Source: an uncultured Bacilli bacterium
GTDB lineage: Bacteria > Bacillota_I > Bacilli_A > RF39 > UBA660
Direction: 5' to 3'
NCBI GenBank assembly: GCA_910586425.1
Contig: CAJUHL010000064.1
Location: 1-9,167 of the forward strand
Length of the DNA stretch: 9,167 nt
Shown: piece by piece, positions 1-8,974 of the stretch
How the letters are laid out: every line of letters starts with the position of its first letter
How positions within the stretch are numbered: position 1 is the stretch's first letter
Program-made: the position numbers and the translations under genes
The notes under the pieces: model-generated
Seen by the model: the letters and a program-made list of their open reading frames with translations, nothing else
Told to the model about the DNA's origin: nothing
The model's database searches: none

Positions 1-52
1 TTACCGAATGGGATTTCCACCCATAAAACACTATACCCTTTGCTGGGCGCAC
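1..52 (-). mobile_element. 5' end of a group II intron (partial, runs off the left edge)
   Basis: Read on the minus strand from position 52, the sequence starts GTGCGCCCAGCAAAGGGT. This matches the conserved GUGYG 5' end of group II introns and closely resembles the start of Ll.LtrB (GUGCGCCCAGAUAGGGU). GCCC and GGGU can pair as the first domain I helix, and a further small hairpin (ATGGG/CCCAT) follows at about 24-8. The 5' splice site would lie between 53 (last exon base, T) and 52 (first intron base, G). The intron is in the same orientation as the gene it interrupts, so splicing could restore the message. The rest of the ribozyme, any reverse transcriptase/maturase and the 3' exon lie outside the window. 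The Ll.LtrB comparison is from memory of the family. Confidence 0.82.
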
Positions 53-1527
53 ACTAAACCTTCTACCTGATTTTTGGCACCACAATGTCTTTTTTCCACA
101 AAATCATATGCATAACATATTTTGCTCCACTCCTCCGTGTCATCCTGACCACTATCGCAAAACGTATCAAACTCCAGTTCACCATTACTATCAATTTTTA
201 GTCGATAATAGTTGTAATTGCTATACACCTTTTTATTAATGTCATTCGTATGTTCTGTACTCTTTCTAAACTCCGTCTTGTTTTTTCTCCTGATAACAAA
301 TGCCCATTCTTTTCCGGAATCAAGTCTTCTCCAGTCAAAAATTGAAATCAGCTTATCTCTCACATCGCCTTTAATAATCAATTCCTGTATTATCTTTTTC
401 ACAGCAGGTGAGCCACCTTGTGACTTTGTAAAATGTTCTGCCTCTTCTGTCATATGCTGAATGATATATCCTCTAAAGTTATCATCATGAGGATCATGGA
501 TGTCATTTTCAGCATAAAACTCACCATCGTGAATAATTCTTATATTATATGCATTCGGGGACACTTCTCCTACACTGGCTTCGATGCCATAATACGTTTG
601 CAATTCATATTTTAATCTTCCAACAATATCATCTGATGTTTCAGATTTATTTTCGTCTACAATAACAACTCCTTTTTTCTGTAGTATTTCTCCATATTGA
701 TGTTCCGATATTCCCTGTTTTTCCAGACTCGAAATATTAAATTCCTTTGCATCTTCCCGCTCCATCATTTCTATAGTAATATATCTGGAAAGATTATCTT
801 TCACATCTCTTAAAAAATGCTCCATTATACCCATCTTACTCTTTCTGAAATGTGCATAATCCGTAATATCAAAATTATCCACCCTAAAATGGTTATGTGG
901 TAACGAGCCCTTTTTGTATGTAATAACATTTACGTCCGTTTTTAATTTCTTTCTAAACTCACCCGTTTTTGAATCTATCACATATAACCCGGCTCCCGCA
1001 CTATTACATCTTTTGAAGGTTCTATGTTCCAGATTTAGATACATCCCAGGGTCAATAACAATCTCCAAAAATCTAATAAAGTTTATTTCGCCCGTTATTT
1101 TATCCTTATGGCTCCATGAAGGTTCATGGTAAAAAAGCTTACCTGTCAGATTATTATACATAAATGCATCAAATTTAGGTGTTCTCATTGAATTTATCAA
1201 CAATTGAGCAAGCAGTCTGTTTTCATAATAAAAATATTTATCACACTGTTCACTATCAAATACATTGATTTTCTGAATTCTTACATCTTTGTATTCCTCC
1301 ATAATGCTATCTTTAAATTTTCTTTCTGTTACATCGCCTTTACGAAACAGCACCAGTGCAGTTGCCCCAAAACTCCATTGAACGGCTACCGCCTTAAACT
1401 CATATTTAGCAGAATCCAATATGTTACAACCATAATAGTCCTTATTAGCCTTCTCAACCCTAAAAATATCAAAGTCAGAATCAATATTTTCCATATTATA
1501 AGTTACATTAATTCTATTCGTTAACAT
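31..1527 (-). CDS. Large defence-associated protein, possibly PIWI/Argonaute-like; 5' exon only, interrupted by a group II intron
   Basis: I do not recognise this family with certainty. The ORF reads 498 residues to a TAG at 33-31, but the exon ends at 53. Only residues 1-491 plus two bases of codon 492 are gene; the final CAQQRV is intron sequence. The start is the ATG at 1527, nine bases after GGGAGG; a TTG six bases earlier sits too close to that site. The gene overlaps the helicase gene by 14 bases, so translation is probably coupled. Residues about 284-322 (KGVVIVDENKSE, then a lysine-containing helix and YGIEASVGEV) resemble an Argonaute MID domain. At about 328-362 there is IIHDGEFY, a DPHD motif and IIQHMTEE, then a KKIIQELIIK segment. 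No PIWI RNase H core is present before the break, so the full protein should be much longer. The pairing with a helicase-nuclease recalls pPIWI-RE modules. The PIWI assignment is an inference; a unique accessory factor of the helicase is the alternative. Confidence 0.6.
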   Translation of the reverse strand: MLTNRINVTYNMENIDSDFDIFRVEKANKDYYGCNILDSAKYEFKAVAVQWSFGATALVLFRKGDVTERKFKDSIMEEYKDVRIQKINVFDSEQCDKYFYYENRLLAQLLINSMRTPKFDAFMYNNLTGKLFYHEPSWSHKDKITGEINFIRFLEIVIDPGMYLNLEHRTFKRCNSAGAGLYVIDSKTGEFRKKLKTDVNVITYKKGSLPHNHFRVDNFDITDYAHFRKSKMGIMEHFLRDVKDNLSRYITIEMMEREDAKEFNISSLEKQGISEHQYGEILQKKGVVIVDENKSETSDDIVGRLKYELQTYYGIEASVGEVSPNAYNIRIIHDGEFYAENDIHDPHDDNFRGYIIQHMTEEAEHFTKSQGGSPAVKKIIQELIIKGDVRDKLISIFDWRRLDSGKEWAFVIRRKNKTEFRKSTEHTNDINKKVYSNYNYYRLKIDSNGELEFDTFCDSGQDDTEEWSKICYAYDFVEKRHCGAKNQVEGLVCAQQRV

Positions 1528-4500
1528 TTTCAAAATCCTCCCTGCGAATCATATGTAAATTATCATAGCATATCGTCCCGTCTTCTTTAACCAGCCTCGG
1601 TATCTCCACCAATCGCTGATCCACAATGGCACTTGGCTTGTAATTTTTATCCGATACAACATTTATTACATAAACACGTTTAGCTCCTATATAATCCAGC
1701 TTTCTCAATATATCTTTTCTGATTTCATCCCTATCCTGCACATATGTAAATTTCCAATTTTTGAAGTCAACATACACGCCATCAGACAGCCTGTAATCAA
1801 AAAATTCAAAGTATTCCGGTTCTGTTATTGATTTCAGCTCAATCCCCAGTTCTTTACTCAATATAAATTTGCCAGCTACTTCTCCTAGGGCTCCCTTGTA
1901 AATATTATGAAACAGAACCGGACTCATAAGATATTCATTCATATGAAATTCTAATGCATATCCTTTTTCTTCAAAATAAGATTTCATTCCCGGATACTTT
2001 AATACTCCTTGCAATCCTGATTCGTTTTCACTCATTTCATAAATAGCAAGTTCATCTGAATTACCTTTGATTTTTGCTCTTTTACTATTTCTAAACGCCA
2101 CCTTGTCATTTCCAAAATCTATTGTAACATCGTTAAAATCCGAATATTGTGAATAAATATACCGATTCTGCTTTACACCGCTTGTAATATAAAGTTTTTG
2201 TATATACTCATTATCCTCCCAATCAGATATATTTGCTGTCGGATATTGTAAAACCAATGTCCTTAAATGCTCCCATAACTGCATACTTTCCCTTGTCCAA
2301 TCTTTTGCCAACATTCTATGTATGGTCCAAAGACCCACTGATGATATCTTTTCCGCTTTATTTAGCAAAGTATTTTCTTCTGGCAGATAATCCTTTCCCA
2401 ACGTTTCACGCATAGAAACTATTTTTTTCATTTCAGGTGGTAATATACGCTTTTTCAATTCACCAACATACAATTTTTCTAACAATTCAGATTCTACAAA
2501 CAAATATATATTAGGATTCTTAACAAACGTTCTGCACATACGCCCTACTGCCTGCAAAACCATTCTGCTCGCCTGTACAACAACGCTTTTCAATTTGTAT
2601 AATTTGTTTAAAGTATATTGTTCAGTTCCCGTATATGAACGAAAAGCAAGTTTTAACATTTGTTCCTTATCAGAATAATTCATTTCACCATTTTCGTACA
2701 ACTCCTCAATTTGAAAAAGCATCTGCAATAATTCATGAGGATTAATTCTATCTTCCTGATATGTATTCACTGTCATATTTGTTATATTGCCCAAATACAA
2801 AGCATCAAAATCCTTATATAAATATCTGTTATCATTTTCATCAAATTCCCCCAACTGCACACCTGTCATGTGTTCTGGAATTTTATACTGCAAATTTTGC
2901 CCTGCTCCTATAGTTTGATAAGATGACATAACAAATATTTTTTCACCACATCCTAATCTCTGTTGTAGCGCTTCCTTATCCTGATCAAAATTATCCCCCT
3001 TCAAAAAGTACAGGTTACTTTTTATTTGATGAATTGCAAATTGGGAATACTCAAATAACTTCGTCAAAACAGTTTCATCCATTCCCGGATTATTTTTCCT
3101 GGGCAATGCCATCCCCAGATATAACATTGATTGAATATCCTCAGTCTTATTAAAAATGCACATAGCTTTAAGTATATTGCAGTATCTTATTATCTGATAT
3201 TCGTTGTTGGTCATATTGGTAATCATGTTTGCTGAATAGCGTGCGATTTCTTCATCAATAAATGTCTTACAGTAATTTTCTGCATGAAATCCATGTATAT
3301 CACTTGTAATTATCTCTCCATGTACCTTGATATCTCCGGCTATATACGCACTCCACCTTTTTTCTAAAGCATTCTTTGTTTTTTCTTTTAAATAATGCGG
3401 GGTTCTGTGAAAACGTTCTTTTAACTGCTCCTCCAAATATCTTAAATCGTAATTTCCTACAACCGTATCAATTTCAGCTGTTGCAGATATTCCGAACACA
3501 GTTGCTTTTCCTGAAAGGTATAATATAATTTTTTCAGGTGTATCATATACCTTAACAAAATTAAGATTCGTATTGTCATGATGTGAATCACTGTCTTCAA
3601 ATTCATAATATTCCATACCAACCTGATAAAAGCTTGCGTCTTCCAGTATCAAATCATGATTATTACAAACCCTTTGACAGGTTTCGCCCATAAGTAAATC
3701 CCTCTGCTTATTGGTCAATTCTAATCGTTTTAAAATAGAACTAATCGCATTTTCTAAACTCATCGCATCCATAATTCCACTTCGAGAATTATTTACAATA
3801 TCCATATAATTTCTTGCCCATTCCATAGAAAACATTCTAAAATGCAAAAGAAATAAATTGATTTCACGTAAAAGACTATATAAAACAATATCTCTTTCTT
3901 TATTCCTGTTTTTAAAAAACTTTTCCTTGCCTTCAAAGAAAACATCTATACGATTATCTTCTTCGTTCAATGTTGCCCTAATATATTGCGCGTCATCCTT
4001 TAAAACAGTGTGAAAAGAACCATCATTAAATAAAAAAATCTGCCTCTGTTCTGCCAAATCTTCCCTTGTCTTTATGCTCAATCTCACATGGTAATTCTCT
4101 GCAATTTTCCTGGCTTCACTGATTAATGAAGTAAGCGTGTTTCTATTACCAACCTTTTCAATCTGCTCCATTGCTTTTCTCATATCAGATGAAAAATCAT
4201 TTGGATTCAACGTACGGTATATCTGACGAAACAACTGAATGTAATCCGCCTGCATTGCCAATGACTTCTCAATAAGTTCATTTTGTATTGTATCTTTTGT
4301 TGCATCAATCTCATCAATAACTATCACTGCTTTCTCAATTAAATCGGAATTTAAAAATTCGTAACTGGTATCAATGAGGATAGAATTTCTCTTCATAAAC
4401 TTACTAACACTCATTAACAGAATTTTATAGTCGTCTGTAAATACTGCCGGATATAATTTTCCAATCCATTGATACTCAGCCTTATCTCTAATGGCTTTTT

Positions 4501-4990
4501 TACGTTGTGTTTTTGATGAAAAACATTTTTTCAACCGCTTTGTTATCTCATAACGAAGCAGTCTGTCTTCCTCTGTTATTCTATCTGCTAACTCCTTTAT
4601 GTATTCTTTATCTGCATATTGCTTGTCTACAGCATCTCGATAAAGAGAAACAACTTTACGTAATTTTATATATGTATCTGTCTGCATCTCTTCTGGGACT
4701 TCAATATCAAGAATCTTTTCAACCACTTCATCAAAATTGGAACGCAATCTTAATACATTACATTTGTATAGCTCCTCACTTCCATAGGCTGCTTTCAGCG
4801 CATCTTCGGGAAGATTTTTATTCAAAGTTGTGAGATAGATTATCTTGGTATTGTCCTCTATAGAATCCGCATATTTCTTCATCGCCTGTGCCGAATCAAA
4901 TGTTTTACCATTACCAGTAGGCAACTCACACAAATATAATCCACATTCTCGCTTTTCCATAACATTTAACAAATAATCTTTCAACCTCAT
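1514..4990 (-). CDS. SF2 (DEAD/DinG-like) helicase fused to a C-terminal PD-(D/E)XK nuclease domain, 1158 aa
   Basis: Predicted nucleic-acid-dependent ATPase/helicase with an attached endonuclease. Visible motifs are Walker A PTGNGKT at residues 24-30, motif Ia-like IIYLTTLNKN near 50-59, Walker B DEID at 226-229, motif III SAT near 500, GAGQNLQY upstream of motif VI, and motif VI QAVGRMCRTF near 812-821. The roughly 200-residue gap between motifs I and II and the QxxGRxxR form recall DinG/XPD-type helicases, but I see no clear iron-sulfur cysteine set. The C-terminus has a PD-(D/E)XK layout: GALGE near 1033, then FDYRLSDGVYVDFKNW near 1065-1080, giving E, D and D-x-K. The start is uncertain: AGGAGG lies one base before the ATG at 4990, while a TTG two codons on (4984) has the normal seven-base spacing. 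An in-frame TAG just upstream excludes a longer N-terminus. The gene lies 29 bases after rloB and overlaps the next gene by 14. In pPIWI-RE systems helicase and REase are usually separate; here they are fused. Confidence 0.85.
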   Translation of the reverse strand: MRLKDYLLNVMEKRECGLYLCELPTGNGKTFDSAQAMKKYADSIEDNTKIIYLTTLNKNLPEDALKAAYGSEELYKCNVLRLRSNFDEVVEKILDIEVPEEMQTDTYIKLRKVVSLYRDAVDKQYADKEYIKELADRITEEDRLLRYEITKRLKKCFSSKTQRKKAIRDKAEYQWIGKLYPAVFTDDYKILLMSVSKFMKRNSILIDTSYEFLNSDLIEKAVIVIDEIDATKDTIQNELIEKSLAMQADYIQLFRQIYRTLNPNDFSSDMRKAMEQIEKVGNRNTLTSLISEARKIAENYHVRLSIKTREDLAEQRQIFLFNDGSFHTVLKDDAQYIRATLNEEDNRIDVFFEGKEKFFKNRNKERDIVLYSLLREINLFLLHFRMFSMEWARNYMDIVNNSRSGIMDAMSLENAISSILKRLELTNKQRDLLMGETCQRVCNNHDLILEDASFYQVGMEYYEFEDSDSHHDNTNLNFVKVYDTPEKIILYLSGKATVFGISATAEIDTVVGNYDLRYLEEQLKERFHRTPHYLKEKTKNALEKRWSAYIAGDIKVHGEIITSDIHGFHAENYCKTFIDEEIARYSANMITNMTNNEYQIIRYCNILKAMCIFNKTEDIQSMLYLGMALPRKNNPGMDETVLTKLFEYSQFAIHQIKSNLYFLKGDNFDQDKEALQQRLGCGEKIFVMSSYQTIGAGQNLQYKIPEHMTGVQLGEFDENDNRYLYKDFDALYLGNITNMTVNTYQEDRINPHELLQMLFQIEELYENGEMNYSDKEQMLKLAFRSYTGTEQYTLNKLYKLKSVVVQASRMVLQAVGRMCRTFVKNPNIYLFVESELLEKLYVGELKKRILPPEMKKIVSMRETLGKDYLPEENTLLNKAEKISSVGLWTIHRMLAKDWTRESMQLWEHLRTLVLQYPTANISDWEDNEYIQKLYITSGVKQNRYIYSQYSDFNDVTIDFGNDKVAFRNSKRAKIKGNSDELAIYEMSENESGLQGVLKYPGMKSYFEEKGYALEFHMNEYLMSPVLFHNIYKGALGEVAGKFILSKELGIELKSITEPEYFEFFDYRLSDGVYVDFKNWKFTYVQDRDEIRKDILRKLDYIGAKRVYVINVVSDKNYKPSAIVDQRLVEIPRLVKEDGTICYDNLHMIRREDFENVNE

Positions 4991-5019
4991 TCCTCCTACT
5001 AACTATATCCGACATATCA

Positions 5020-5688
5020 TCAGCTCTCAACTTTTCTTCGTATTTCTTCCACCAACCGTTGCACTATACTCGCCGGCCACATCTCCGATGGCTTCATTTT
5101 CCCATCTTCTATGCACTTTTTGTAATATCGCTTTGCTATCTGAATCGCTTTTTCTTCATCCCCATGCTGCACCAGTTTCCGATAAATATCCCTATCATTC
5201 TTAGAATACTTTTGCCTTGTTACCTTCTCAAACTTCTCCGCAAACCGTTCACAACATATATAAGATTCCTTGATAGCGGGCATCTCACCAAAGTATGCAA
5301 ACATCCATATTTCAAAGCACGGGTTAGACCATCCGGCATTGATATCGTTTCCCTCTGCCAGCCTTATAATCTCATCAAAATCCTTTACCTGATCCCTGTC
5401 GAAAACAATCCATGGAATCCGATACTGCGATTCTGCATCGTTAAGTTCCATCGCCCTTTTCACCAGTTCTGCGGTCTTTGCCCTTTCCACCTTTATAACC
5501 AAATGGTCTTTTAGTTCCACAGGAATGCTATCTCTCAAACCTTCAAAATAATTCTTCTCTGTTTCCTCCGTATCAGTTACAATCAGGTAATACCCTAATT
5601 CAGGTATCCTTGTTCCTACCCGATTATTCCGGTCTTTTCGTTTCCCAGCCCTGCGGTCACTGGGTTTGCCTTTCCCTTTACTCGTCAT
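5020..5688 (-). CDS. rloB: RloB-family protein (Toprim-like putative nuclease), 222 aa
   Basis: The protein starts with a basic tail (about 14 Lys/Arg in the first 28 residues), typical of RloB, then a hydrophobic strand LGYYLIVTDT leading into EETEKNYFEGL (41-51), which is the RloB signature 'EGxKTExNYF'. IPWIVFDRDQ (91-100) supplies the Toprim-like D-x-D pair at D97 and D99. SNPCFEIWMF (121-130) is the conserved RloB SNPCFExW motif. The canonical Toprim glutamate-glycine is replaced by D39-T40, although several glutamates follow directly. The gene overlaps the end of the ATPase gene by 11 bases (ATGACGAGTAA), and GGGAGG lies eight bases upstream of the ATG, so the two are translationally coupled. 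In known ATPase-Toprim pairs (OLD, PARIS AriA/AriB) the Toprim partner is the effector nuclease held by the ATPase; that role here is inferred. A 60-base sample from the gene's 3' part is 48% GC against 35% in a helicase sample, which may hint at a separate origin. Confidence 0.9.
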   Translation of the reverse strand: MTSKGKGKPSDRRAGKRKDRNNRVGTRIPELGYYLIVTDTEETEKNYFEGLRDSIPVELKDHLVIKVERAKTAELVKRAMELNDAESQYRIPWIVFDRDQVKDFDEIIRLAEGNDINAGWSNPCFEIWMFAYFGEMPAIKESYICCERFAEKFEKVTRQKYSKNDRDIYRKLVQHGDEEKAIQIAKRYYKKCIEDGKMKPSEMWPASIVQRLVEEIRRKVES

Positions 5689-6973
5689 CCAAAGTCCTCC
5701 CAGTCAGCATTTCCATGGGCTTCAAGGCAGGAATGGCCCCATAACTGCCTGTCAGATATTTTTTAGACAAAGCCTCGTCTCTACGTACCTTATTGCCTTC
5801 TTCATCTTTAAAGTCAGCCAGAGAATATAATTCAGAAACTCCATCCCTATTTTTATTGACCAGCCAAATCTCATCCCGGCGAAGCAATTCATTAGAAAAC
5901 TGCCAGACGTCATGAGTCGTAAAAATCAACTGTGCATTCTGTGTATTGATTTCTGGGGACAAAAAGGTCAATATTATATTCCGTACCAACAACGGGTGCA
6001 ATCTGGCATTTAACTCATCAACAAACAGTGTACCCCCATGATCCAGCACATCTTTTAAGGAAGGATAGAGCGCAAACATTTTTAACGTACCACTGGACTC
6101 CAATTTTAAAGGAATAGATGCCAGCTCCTGACTGTCCACCATTTTGTGTAACGCATCAATCTTATAACCTTTGCCTGTATCTTTCTCATCTTCTTGCAGC
6201 AACTCTTCTACGTTAAAATCCTGAATTGCCTCATCAAAAGATGCAAAATACTTTACTACATTCGCCTGCACTTCCTTGCTGTCTATAAAACCTTCCGGAA
6301 GCACTCTTGAGCGAAAGTAATTTTCTGCCGGATCACCAAAATCAAGAATGTCATTATTTAAAAACCAGTCTCTTACCTTTTTTAACTTATCAATCCGCAG
6401 TTTCGTTCCTAATGAAACAATAAGTGTTTCTTTATTTAAGGATGCTTTGATATTTTCTATATGGCTTTTAGAAAAACCATTCATCTCCAATTCTTCACCT
6501 TTTTTTCGGTAAAAGATTGTTCTATAGTTGTTCCTCGCTGTTTTGGCTTTAGAATATAGCCATTCCTCTACCACTTCATCGTTTTTCAACGAAAATCCAT
6601 ATTGATAAATTTTTCCACTATTCTCAGCATTATCTACATAAAATACCTCAAATGTAGTTTCCTCGTCATGGCTCTTTCTATCAAACAAAAAAGGAGTGAC
6701 TTTCATATAATTATTCTCTGTTTTCCGGCGGCTATCTTTCTCTCCCCCAAAGTTAAAAGATTCTGACACATAGTAAGTCATATAATCAAATGCATCATAT
6801 ACATTAGACTTTCCACTCGCATTGGCTCCGTAAATTGCAGCAACCTTTAGCAGTTTGTCATTGGCAATATCCACCACATGGCTTTCATGTTCCGTAATCT
6901 TAGTGGCTGATAAATCCAGTGATACTTCATCCCGAAATGATTTATAATTTTTAAAGTTAAATTGTATCAGCAT
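5678..6973 (-). CDS. rloA: AAA/ABC-type ATPase, RloA-like (AAA_15/AAA_21, OLD-like), 431 aa
   Basis: Predicted cytosolic SMC/ABC-like ATPase that partners the RloB nuclease. The N-terminus MLIQFNFKNYKSFRDEVSLDL is the classic opening of this family. Walker A GANASGKS lies at about residues 49-56 and Walker B GTLFVDELNARLHP near 314-327. FTTHD, the switch histidine, follows at about 358-362. The tail contains KKYLTGSYGAIP, a motif common at the C-terminus of RloA/AAA_15 proteins. The SSGTLKMF segment upstream of Walker B is the expected signature loop. I chose the ATG at 6973 because GAGGAG lies six to seven bases upstream. An ATG nine codons earlier would sit almost at the predicted transcription start with no ribosome site. 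It is the first gene of a four-gene operon and overlaps rloB by 11 bases. In related systems (PARIS, OLD, Gabija-like pairs) the ATPase senses phage proteins or DNA; the trigger here is unknown. Confidence 0.9.
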   Translation of the reverse strand: MLIQFNFKNYKSFRDEVSLDLSATKITEHESHVVDIANDKLLKVAAIYGANASGKSNVYDAFDYMTYYVSESFNFGGEKDSRRKTENNYMKVTPFLFDRKSHDEETTFEVFYVDNAENSGKIYQYGFSLKNDEVVEEWLYSKAKTARNNYRTIFYRKKGEELEMNGFSKSHIENIKASLNKETLIVSLGTKLRIDKLKKVRDWFLNNDILDFGDPAENYFRSRVLPEGFIDSKEVQANVVKYFASFDEAIQDFNVEELLQEDEKDTGKGYKIDALHKMVDSQELASIPLKLESSGTLKMFALYPSLKDVLDHGGTLFVDELNARLHPLLVRNIILTFLSPEINTQNAQLIFTTHDVWQFSNELLRRDEIWLVNKNRDGVSELYSLADFKDEEGNKVRRDEALSKKYLTGSYGAIPALKPMEMLTGRTLDDE

Positions 6974-7004
6974 AATAATCTCCTCATTTTTCATTGACAC
7001 TTCT

Positions 7005-7037
7005 ATTATATTATACCCTAAATCAAGTAAAAATCAA
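7005..7037 (-). promoter_or_regulatory. Sigma-A-type promoter of the rloA operon
   Basis: On the minus strand there is a -35 TTGATT at 7037-7032, a 16-base spacer and a perfect -10 TATAAT at 7015-7010. A second TATAAT overlaps at 7010-7005. Transcription should start near 7003, giving a leader of about 30 bases before the ATG at 6973 with its GAGGAG site. The -35 box lies inside the left arm of the 27-bp inverted repeat, so a factor binding that repeat would compete with RNA polymerase. No comparable promoter was noticed between the four downstream genes, which supports one transcript. Confidence 0.65.
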
Positions 7038-7087
7038 CGTCTAATTTATGTAAATACTTTAATTAGATGTTGATTTTTACTTGATTT
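7020..7087. repeat. 27-bp near-perfect inverted repeat with a 14-base centre
   Basis: The left arm 7020-7046 and the right arm 7061-7087 are reverse complements at 26 of 27 positions (G at 7039 against T at 7068, a wobble if transcribed), with the AT-rich centre 7047-7060 between them. Each arm carries a copy of TTGATTTTTACTTGATTT pointing outwards. Neither side is followed by a U-run, so it does not look like a standard intrinsic terminator. Its position over the -35 of the rloA promoter suggests an operator. A small palindromic mobile remnant or a structured leader RNA are alternatives. Confidence 0.9.
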
Positions 7088-7096
7088 ACATATAAT
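7070..7096 (+). promoter_or_regulatory. Possible divergent promoter on the right arm of the palindrome
   Basis: On the plus strand, TTGATT at 7070-7075 is followed 15 bases later by TATAAT at 7091-7096. This mirrors the rloA promoter, because the -35 is supplied by the other arm of the repeat while the -10 lies outside it in both cases. The spacer is shorter than ideal. Nothing coding was found downstream on the plus strand, so if it works it would make a short untranslated RNA running towards 7200 or an antisense transcript against the HEPN gene. Confidence 0.3.
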
Positions 7097-7525
7097 TCCT
7101 TTAAAATAATCGCCTAAACAAATCCAGTTGATTTACTCAACAAAATTTTAGTCAGTCTGTAGCAACACTTTATTCGACAACAAGCGTCACGAAATAGCAT
7201 GCACCTTGTCTCAAAAATCCGTGCTTTTCTACCCCGGCAGACTATCCTCCACACAAATCGCCCCATACCCCGCGTATGTCAAGTTATTGTCACAAACTTT
7301 TTTCACTTTTTTTGAGTGAAAATCGCTGAAACCCGCATAACTTCGTGGGGCGTATGGTACGATAATGCTAAGTTGGGGCAAAATTGACGGTGAATTAGTG
7401 TCAAGTTGGAATGACAGAAAAGTATGTTTCATATATACAAAAAACAGTCAACCGATTAGCCATTTCACAGTTGTGTCCTATAAAATACATCATTCAATAA
7501 TATCCTTTATTATATATTTTCATCA
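7088..7525. other. Gene-free stretch with short repeats, possibly mobile-element debris
   Basis: I see no convincing gene here. A 67-codon minus-strand ORF (7432-7229) has no family resemblance and no good ribosome site. The stretch holds TGTCAAGTTATTGTCA at 7277-7292 and TGTCAAGTTGGAATGACA at 7399-7416, which share TGTCAAGTT; the second is itself a TGTCA/TGACA inverted repeat. An 8-bp hairpin, TTTTCACT/AGTGAAAA, lies at 7300-7322. Around it an imperfect inverted pair, CCCCATACCCCGCG near 7261 and GGGGCGTATGG near 7347, forms a larger nested fold. Such a pattern is compatible with the end of a decayed insertion element, but no transposase remains. Confidence 0.4.
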
Positions 7526-8173
7526 TTATTTTATAGCATCATAAGAATGCGATACCCCAGCCATTTGTTGACGGACAGCTTTCTTAATATGTTCATCTTT
7601 AATACCAATTTCTTTCAAAATATAATACTGCAATACTCCCAATAATATCCCATTCACATAGGGCATTTGATGTTTCGGAAAAATCTTTTCCTTCTTATCA
7701 ATAGAATAATGTGTATAATAGTTTCTTGTGTCGACTACCTTTTGAATAAATTCATCCATTTTATAATCCAAATACTCGAATATAATTTCAAATCTGGCCA
7801 AAAATAAATATCCTAATCTGCTTTTTAATGTAATACTTCTCACTCCCTCTTCATTCTGTGCGATAAGCACCTGACGGTAACTCAATATATGCCCATCAAA
7901 CTCATCATCATCTGTTAATTTATAAATTTTTCTCAAAAAAACATCTACTAATTTAATATACTTTTTCAAATCATTACTAACAAATCTGGCATGATATGTT
8001 TCCAATGCCTGGGTCAGATTTAAAAATAGCATCTCACTCGATATACCTGGATAATTATACGCTGTTTCATATAGTTCAACAATAGATCCTAATAAATCAT
8101 ATTTGAAATACCAGTTTTTCAAACAATGATAAGCATTTCCCGTTAAATCAGATAATGTAAAAAGATAATACAT
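7526..8173 (-). CDS. ApeA-type HEPN domain protein (C-terminal part of a split ApeA), 215 aa
   Basis: Mostly helical protein with the HEPN RNase motif R-N-Y-Y-T-H (R150 and H155 form the RX4H pair) inside VVDTRNYYTHYS, the form usual in ApeA-like abortive-infection proteins. The segment FLNLTQALETYHARF (50-64) is also ApeA-like. In intact ApeA this domain follows the ApeA N-terminal domain in one chain. Here it starts at its own ATG (8173), 31 bases inside the end of the upstream ORF and in a different frame. Upstream of the ATG is AGGCGGGGG four bases away, which could act as a ribosome site, so it may be a genuine second cistron coupled to the first. Alternatively a frameshift in the G5 tract split one gene; one extra G would join the frames. 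The expected role is RNA cleavage that arrests phage-infected cells. The active-site motif is intact. Confidence 0.82.
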   Translation of the reverse strand: MYYLFTLSDLTGNAYHCLKNWYFKYDLLGSIVELYETAYNYPGISSEMLFLNLTQALETYHARFVSNDLKKYIKLVDVFLRKIYKLTDDDEFDGHILSYRQVLIAQNEEGVRSITLKSRLGYLFLARFEIIFEYLDYKMDEFIQKVVDTRNYYTHYSIDKKEKIFPKHQMPYVNGILLGVLQYYILKEIGIKDEHIKKAVRQQMAGVSHSYDAIK

Positions 8174-8946
8174 CCATCCCCCGCCTGATGCTTTCCTGCT
8201 TTAGCATCTCCAAGAAAAGCATCTCTTTTACTAATGAATCCTCTTTCATCTTTATTTGATTGATGTAGATACCATATTTCTTCAATATAAATGGCTTTGT
8301 TTATGCCAAGAGTCAGTAACTGGCTTATTATCTGTATATCCTTTATTACATCATCCCAACACACAGCTTTTTGATATTCCAACTGCATATATACCGCCTG
8401 CTCAATAGTCACTTTTTTAGTCGTTATATTTCCCATACTTTTTGAACCAAGATGCGGAACTATACGCAATGTGGTATTGCTATTAATTTCAAATTCTATG
8501 TCAGAATTATAATTCCACGCCAGTTTCTCATCTCTATAATCATCTTTTACTTCCCAATTAAAACTGCAGAGTTCCGTCCAGTCGAGAATCTCTCCAAAAT
8601 CTATAATTACCTTGGGAAATATTAGTTCTTCTTTACTTTCTATATCAAGATTCCAAAAAGCTGCTTTTACAGATACAGAAACTGTAGTCCGCTGTCCCAG
8701 ACAATTATTTTGTCCCCCAATTAAACAGTCATACAGTAATATTGTTCCTCCTGTATCAATACTTCCCTTTATAATATCTGTTCTCCCATGTACCTTAATC
8801 TTCCCAATAAAATCATCTTCAGTTGCCACCTTAGTTAACTGCAACAGAATTTTCTTTTGAACTTTATTAATATACAATGTTCCCGCTATTGTCTCATCAG
8901 TCTCTGGTATATACCAGTCCCCATTCATTCTAATATCTTCTTCCAT
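8143..8946 (-). CDS. apeA: ApeA N-terminal domain protein (N-terminal part of a split ApeA), 267 aa
   Basis: The start (GDWYIPETDETIAGTLYIN), followed by KIKVHGRTDIIKGSI and ILLYDCLIG, is the beta-rich pattern of the ApeA N-terminal domain (ApeA_NTD1), which is thought to sense infection or hold the HEPN RNase inactive. The ATG at 8946 is chosen because AAGGAG lies six bases upstream; an ATG five codons earlier has no such site. The last residues after about DAKAGKHQAGDG (CIIFLHYLI) look unrelated to the family and are probably read out of frame. True homology should continue in the overlapping HEPN ORF. The gene begins 29 bases after the U-tract of the upstream terminator, so it is likely a separate unit, though I could not settle on a clear promoter. 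Domain identification rests on remembered family patterns. Confidence 0.78.
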   Translation of the reverse strand: MEEDIRMNGDWYIPETDETIAGTLYINKVQKKILLQLTKVATEDDFIGKIKVHGRTDIIKGSIDTGGTILLYDCLIGGQNNCLGQRTTVSVSVKAAFWNLDIESKEELIFPKVIIDFGEILDWTELCSFNWEVKDDYRDEKLAWNYNSDIEFEINSNTTLRIVPHLGSKSMGNITTKKVTIEQAVYMQLEYQKAVCWDDVIKDIQIISQLLTLGINKAIYIEEIWYLHQSNKDERGFISKRDAFLGDAKAGKHQAGDGCIIFLHYLI

Positions 8947-8974
8947 GTCATTCTCCTTCATTCGTATTTAATTG

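Follow-up and report, generated by a model that had tools for sequence, protein, structure and literature searches.

Group II introns are mobile elements that are often found on conjugative elements. As a general rule given in the accessible part of PMC4424553, the introns of bacteria are mostly located elsewhere than in housekeeping genes. In integrative and conjugative elements of Streptococcus suis, the introns described in the accessible text of PMC12479173 are inserted at conserved protein motifs of virB4, helicase and coupling-protein genes; its authors state that full-length VirB4 and coupling protein depend on splicing and that the introns give rise to false pseudogenes. In phage group II introns, a conserved pentamer that precedes the Rfam D1-D4 match allows the 5' splice site to be recognized, and the intron-bearing coding genes named in the accessible part of PMC12350094 include one annotated antirestriction helicase. 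Here we describe a 9,167-nucleotide contig of an uncultured Bacilli bacterium (GCA_910586425.1, CAJUHL010000064.1; this whole stretch is called the window below), at one end of which a group II intron appears to be inserted, on the sense strand, at a conserved spot of the anti-plasmid, Argonaute-like gene ddmE. We consider this reading near certain, with a rough probability of 0.96. It shares with the S. suis introns the insertion at a conserved protein motif and with the phage introns the pentamer that marks the 5' site; the hosts given in the accessible parts of those reports, however, are conjugative elements rather than an anti-plasmid gene (PMC12479173), and phage genes and a helicase rather than DdmE (PMC12350094). 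In the open-licence literature searched, no paper combined DdmDE with a group II intron, and among the titles and abstract openings listed none concerned an intron in ddmE.

DdmE is described in the accessible part of PMC12409362 as a catalytically inactive Argonaute that locates plasmids by means of DNA guides and recruits DdmD. The accessible text of PMC12904381 swaps the two names; naming here follows PMC12409362 and PADLOC. In the solved systems (DdmE chains 9ezy, named Vibrio cholerae DdmE, 8u3k and 9iw3), an Argonaute-like DdmE adjoins a DdmD helicase-nuclease. The window has the same arrangement, but its proteins are distant in sequence from the solved ones and its ddmE is interrupted. 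The features that concern the interrupted gene are as follows.

53..1527, minus strand: 5' exon of ddmE, 491 codons plus two bases.
1..52, minus strand: first 52 nucleotides of a group II intron (GTGCG...) of the RF02005 (group-II-D1D4-6) type, matched by the covariance model R1 described below; the contig ends inside it.
31..33, minus strand: TAG stop that ends the unspliced frame, inside the intron.
53..58, minus strand: last six exon bases, TTTAGT, a candidate intron-binding site 1 (IBS1) by analogy with the pairing to exon-binding site 1 (EBS1) in relatives; the EBS1 of the window would lie beyond the contig end.
1514..4990, minus strand: ddmD-like helicase-nuclease of 1158 amino acids (aa), uninterrupted, PADLOC PDLC04130 at E 1e-32, overlapping ddmE by 14 nucleotides.

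The open reading frame as listed spans 31-1533 on the minus strand and encodes 500 aa from a TTG, or 498 aa from the ATG at 1527, which is the start in the eight homologues aligned with the window ddmE. From this ATG, the frame runs through 491 codons and a GT to position 53, and GTGCGCCCAGC begins at position 52. This places the junction GGTTTAGT/GTGCGCCCAGC between positions 53 and 52 and splits codon 492 behind its second base (GT/G); the minus strand from the junction onward reads GTGCGCCCAGCAAAGGG. Translation of the unspliced frame appends V-C-A-Q-Q-R-V before the TAG at 33-31, for a total of 498 residues. The sequence-only reading made earlier from the letters had given these coordinates, the phase, the residue count of 498 and the splice site after the second base of codon 492, all correctly.

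That reading had also called the host a PIWI-like defence gene, which agrees with its identification as ddmE beside ddmD. PADLOC recognized the window protein as DdmE over residues 205-454 (E 7.6e-9) and an intact homologue at E 1.6e-11, and the adjoining upstream gene as DdmD, whereas Pfam and NCBIfam gave no confident name to either product. A family profile matched the solved DdmE chains 9iw3 and 8u3k, and did so again when more sequences were included. Neither the ddmE exon nor ddmD contains any stop or frameshift relative to relatives, and the homologous locus L001 carries the same ddmD-ddmE pair (83% and 76% identical, respectively).

A homologue of the window protein, P0001, is an uninterrupted protein of 698 aa that is 98% identical (BLASTP). 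The two diverge abruptly at the junction, with ...NQVEGLV-YSDIDNIN in P0001 against ...NQVEGLV-CAQQRV and a stop in the window. Homologue lengths and ends were judged on 120 listed of the 441 homologues found: 109 of them measure 692-700 residues and 11 measure 587-671 (the shortest 587 aa), and none ends near residue 492. A natural C-terminus at the TAG was therefore rejected, and the intron-less relatives that the sequence-only reading had proposed to look for are represented by P0001 and by all 120, which continue past the junction. At the DNA level, L001 reads straight through the junction point. DdmE relatives were present in 6 of 397 sampled genomes of the family of genome G001 (G001 included), none with a stop in the matched frame. 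The Butyrivibrio locus L002, not displayed as a match in this draw, has a broken ddmDE and yet reads through the junction point as well.

The junction falls in a V-x-G-L stretch that is recognizable even in DdmE relatives at 26-35% identity, so that losing the remainder of DdmE is unlikely to be harmless. The truncated product would be without residues 493-698, the last 206, including a C-terminal block ending VLPFPYKYLREY that is present in P0001 and is part of the best match to solved DdmE. The earlier suggestion that the unspliced protein is cut off before a catalytic core does not hold, since DdmE is described as catalytically inactive (accessible part of PMC12409362); what would be lost is this segment and not a catalytic core. 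A structure prediction of P0001 was poor (mean predicted local distance difference test score 47) and was not used. Separately, we observed that several DdmE proteins close to P0049 (P0021-P0025, P0060, P0065 and P0112) end or switch tails at about residues 582-602, which may reflect the ends of contigs or, alternatively, another site in ddmE that is prone to insertion; P0049 itself presumably comes from a Lachnospira eligens metagenome-assembled genome, as its name states.

The sequence beyond the junction has the character of an intron 5' end. GTGCG occupies positions 52-48 of the minus strand, exactly where homology to uninterrupted DdmE ceases, and fits the GUGYG 5' end. When the 62 end bases were compared by BLAST with 150 genomes of G001's family, six weak matches resulted (E 5e-5 to 0.08). 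Three of them (L003, L004 and L006) align at the GTGCG end and carry RF02005 just downstream. The other three (L005, L007 and L008) matched an internal stretch and not the intron start, and were dropped without an Rfam test. RF02005, run against 200 genomes of that family, matched at 25 places distributed over 16 genomes. At 20 of the places the score exceeded the family cut-off, and many of the 25 begin GTGCG(C/T)CCAGC-AAGGG. The window shares with these Lachnospiraceae introns the GTGCG(C/T)CCAG-AAGGG 5' end and the hairpin position; in their commonest subgroup the Rfam model begins 35 bases into the intron, and the spacing in the window, counted from its sequence, is equal.

We then built R1, a covariance model of 12 distinct Lachnospiraceae RF02005-type intron 5' ends, with the window kept out of training. 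The 12 comprise 11 of the 25 RF02005 places (among them L026, below the family cut-off) and L004, which was found solely via the window sequence; L020 and L029 were found both ways. Left out were 14 places, namely L028 (near-identical to L013), L033 (with a GCGCG start) and others with diverged or missing 5' ends. With E values up to 10 allowed, R1 matched the window once, on the minus strand at 52-1, with a score of 49 bits (E 3.4e-17) and a mark that the match is truncated on its 3' side. This match begins exactly at the junction, in support of the sense-orientation intron 5' end proposed from the sequence. When applied to 12 of the 14 left-out places (L027 and L028 excluded), R1 found six at E 5e-5 or better (L033, L035, L025, L032, L021 and L018) and three weakly at E 0.5 to 1.4 (L034, L017's own place and L019); L024, L031 and L036 were not found. 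R1 thus describes one subgroup of these introns, the window included.

Several results weigh against this reading or against the view, set out below, that the intron is complete and spliced. The 52 bases fold no better than shuffled sequences (z -0.19), and no Rfam family matches them even at E up to 5. Rfam is silent because only about 17 of the 225 positions of the RF02005 model can be present, and the evidence for an intron thus consists of conserved sequence and exact position and not of folding energy. Allowing up to three mismatches, the intron 5' end of the window occurred in none of 397 genomes of G001's family, and a second pattern in none of 200 genomes from a draw overlapping the 397. 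Insertion in a gene also appears to be the exception. Twelve of 14 related 5' ends have no frame of more than 80 codons open to the junction on their upstream side, one (L040) starts so close to a contig end that no call could be made, and only L016 (identical in position to L047) is inside a long frame, namely sbcD of genome G006 (see below), whereas the window intron lies inside a defence gene. Lastly, broken copies are common. Among ten related loci with more than 3 kb downstream, nine match RF02005 at gathering level (L043 is just below), five show D5 (RF00029) at gathering level and five do not. Only in three of them (L037, L040 and L045) are D1-D4 and D5 separated by a frame of some 430-460 aa. 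The frame of L045, the only one tested, encodes a reverse transcriptase/maturase of the group II kind: it matched TIGR04416 above cut-off together with RVT_1 and the maturase domain GIIM, and it is similar to maturases of group II introns whose structures are solved.

Searches elsewhere gave little. The 5' end with up to three mismatches was absent from genomes G001 and G002, and three patterns of the intron end had no match in viral contigs. The 54-base end had one 21-base match in plasmids (a Pandoraea plasmid, E 0.3) and none in phages, and the ddmE region had no match in plasmids or phages and no relative in viral contigs. Three of the related introns, in genome G181, directly follow a stop codon and are not independent. 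L039, L045 and L046, three introns of one genome, each begin immediately behind the stop codon of similar frames, as though they homed to the end of that gene; these frames resemble transporter permeases.

The relatives also inform the candidate IBS1. Pairing with EBS1 was examined at 13 loci, of which six had no recognizable loop and six were usable after L046 was dropped. In five of the six, the last six exon bases pair with the EBS1 loop at 6/6 positions, compared with 4 of 42 mismatched exon-loop combinations (including the loops shared by L039 and L045, which also share a genome); L040 pairs at 4/6 only. An 8-base complement to the window exon end in L046 was set aside as a coincidence, as it lies in a remnant of reverse-transcriptase coding sequence.

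A parallel for insertion in a coding gene was found in genome G006, where an RF02005 intron in sense orientation splits sbcD and, as in the window, interrupts a codon behind its second base. The sbcD 5' half closes contig C40, about 340 nucleotides inside the intron, and its unspliced next codon is TAG. The 3' half opens contig C1 behind domains V-VI, with the RF00029 match ending at base 93 (...CTACTCGAC). Read by eye, the halves join as TA/C to give R-Y-S-G-S-P once the intron is left out, and the loop TGCCTG of this intron pairs 6/6 with the exon end CAGGTA. G006 has one SbcD_C match, and a second, weak TIGR00619 match is below cut-off. The exact exons indicate that an RF02005-type intron does occupy a coding gene in the sense direction and in the phase of the window, and that assemblies break inside such introns. 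The two cases are alike in intron type, strand, phase and the contig break within the intron; they differ in that the 3' half and domains V-VI were found for sbcD, and in that its host gene is a repair nuclease.

We propose that a mobile RF02005-type intron has inserted in the coding strand of ddmE after the second base of codon 492, in a genome that, judging by the homologues, is probably of the Lachnospiraceae. The contig breaks after 52 nucleotides of the intron, and further copies of the intron in the genome are the probable cause. In the ddmD-ddmE transcript, the intron would most likely fold and be spliced out with the help of a reverse transcriptase/maturase, rejoining the GT to the next codon base and giving a full-length DdmE that would presumably work; the unspliced message would give the 498-aa protein. 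Based on the sbcD analogy and on the undamaged exon and partner gene, we infer that the intron is complete and splicing, to which we give somewhat better than even odds. The intron would then most likely be a passive passenger tolerated via splicing and not a regulator.

The main competing explanation, possible though doubtful, is that the intron is truncated or dead, in which case ddmE would be knocked out and DdmD left without its guide-binding partner. The five of ten related loci without a D5 match are in line with this, and ddmDE can break, as in Butyrivibrio L002, where ddmD, divided by an insertion of two genes, merges into a shortened ddmE. However, the upstream exon and ddmD of the window are uninterrupted, and the sole in-gene parallel, in sbcD, retains D5/D6 and an exact 3' exon. 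If the passenger is instead a regulator, plasmid immunity would be gated by splicing, with the ribozyme and maturase of the invader setting the level of DdmE, which we regard as very unlikely. In the form of a switch on plasmid immunity, whereby conditional splicing sets the amount of DdmE, the idea draws on architecture, as full-length DdmE needs splicing if the gene works; it is very unlikely indeed, given that the arrangement was not seen to recur (no stop in the DdmE relatives of the 6 of 397 genomes, and no end near residue 492 among the 120 listed proteins) and that 12 of 14 related introns lie outside long frames. Least probable of all is an assembly chimera in which 52 bases of an unrelated intron were misjoined to ddmE: the overhang is short and at a contig end, but the fusion point coincides with the first intron base, the orientation is compatible with splicing and uninterrupted alleles continue there, and contigs are expected to end inside repeats, as in G006.

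Beyond ddmDE, the window carries further features.

5020-7000, minus strand: two-gene AbiL-like system (AAA ATPase and RloB-like) adjoining ddmDE.
7010-7097: long hairpin in the gap that separates the AbiL genes from ApeA.
7526-8961, minus strand: ApeA-like defence gene split in two overlapping frames, both matching PADLOC PDC-S58.
8143-8961, minus strand: ApeA-like N-terminal domain frame.
7526-8173, minus strand: ApeA-like HEPN part.

The split in the ApeA-like gene may stem from a frameshift or a sequencing error, or the gene may be a pseudogene. The hairpin, matched by three microRNA models far below their cut-offs, probably represents either a small mobile element or a terminator. The AbiL-like pair also follows ddmE in Butyrivibrio L002. 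In that locus (1494-7434, Butyrivibrio sp. VCD2006), the two inserted genes that divide ddmD presumably represent an IS21-type IstA/IstB pair, judging by their resemblance; ddmD homology stops near residue 711 and ddmE homology begins near residue 227, as after a deletion.

Taken at the strength given above, the window presents a retroelement placed inside an Argonaute-type anti-plasmid gene. To annotation software, a gene split in this way resembles a pseudogene though it may be functional after splicing, and counts of broken defence systems could thus be too high. Were splicing conditional, the immune output of the cell would depend on a mobile element.
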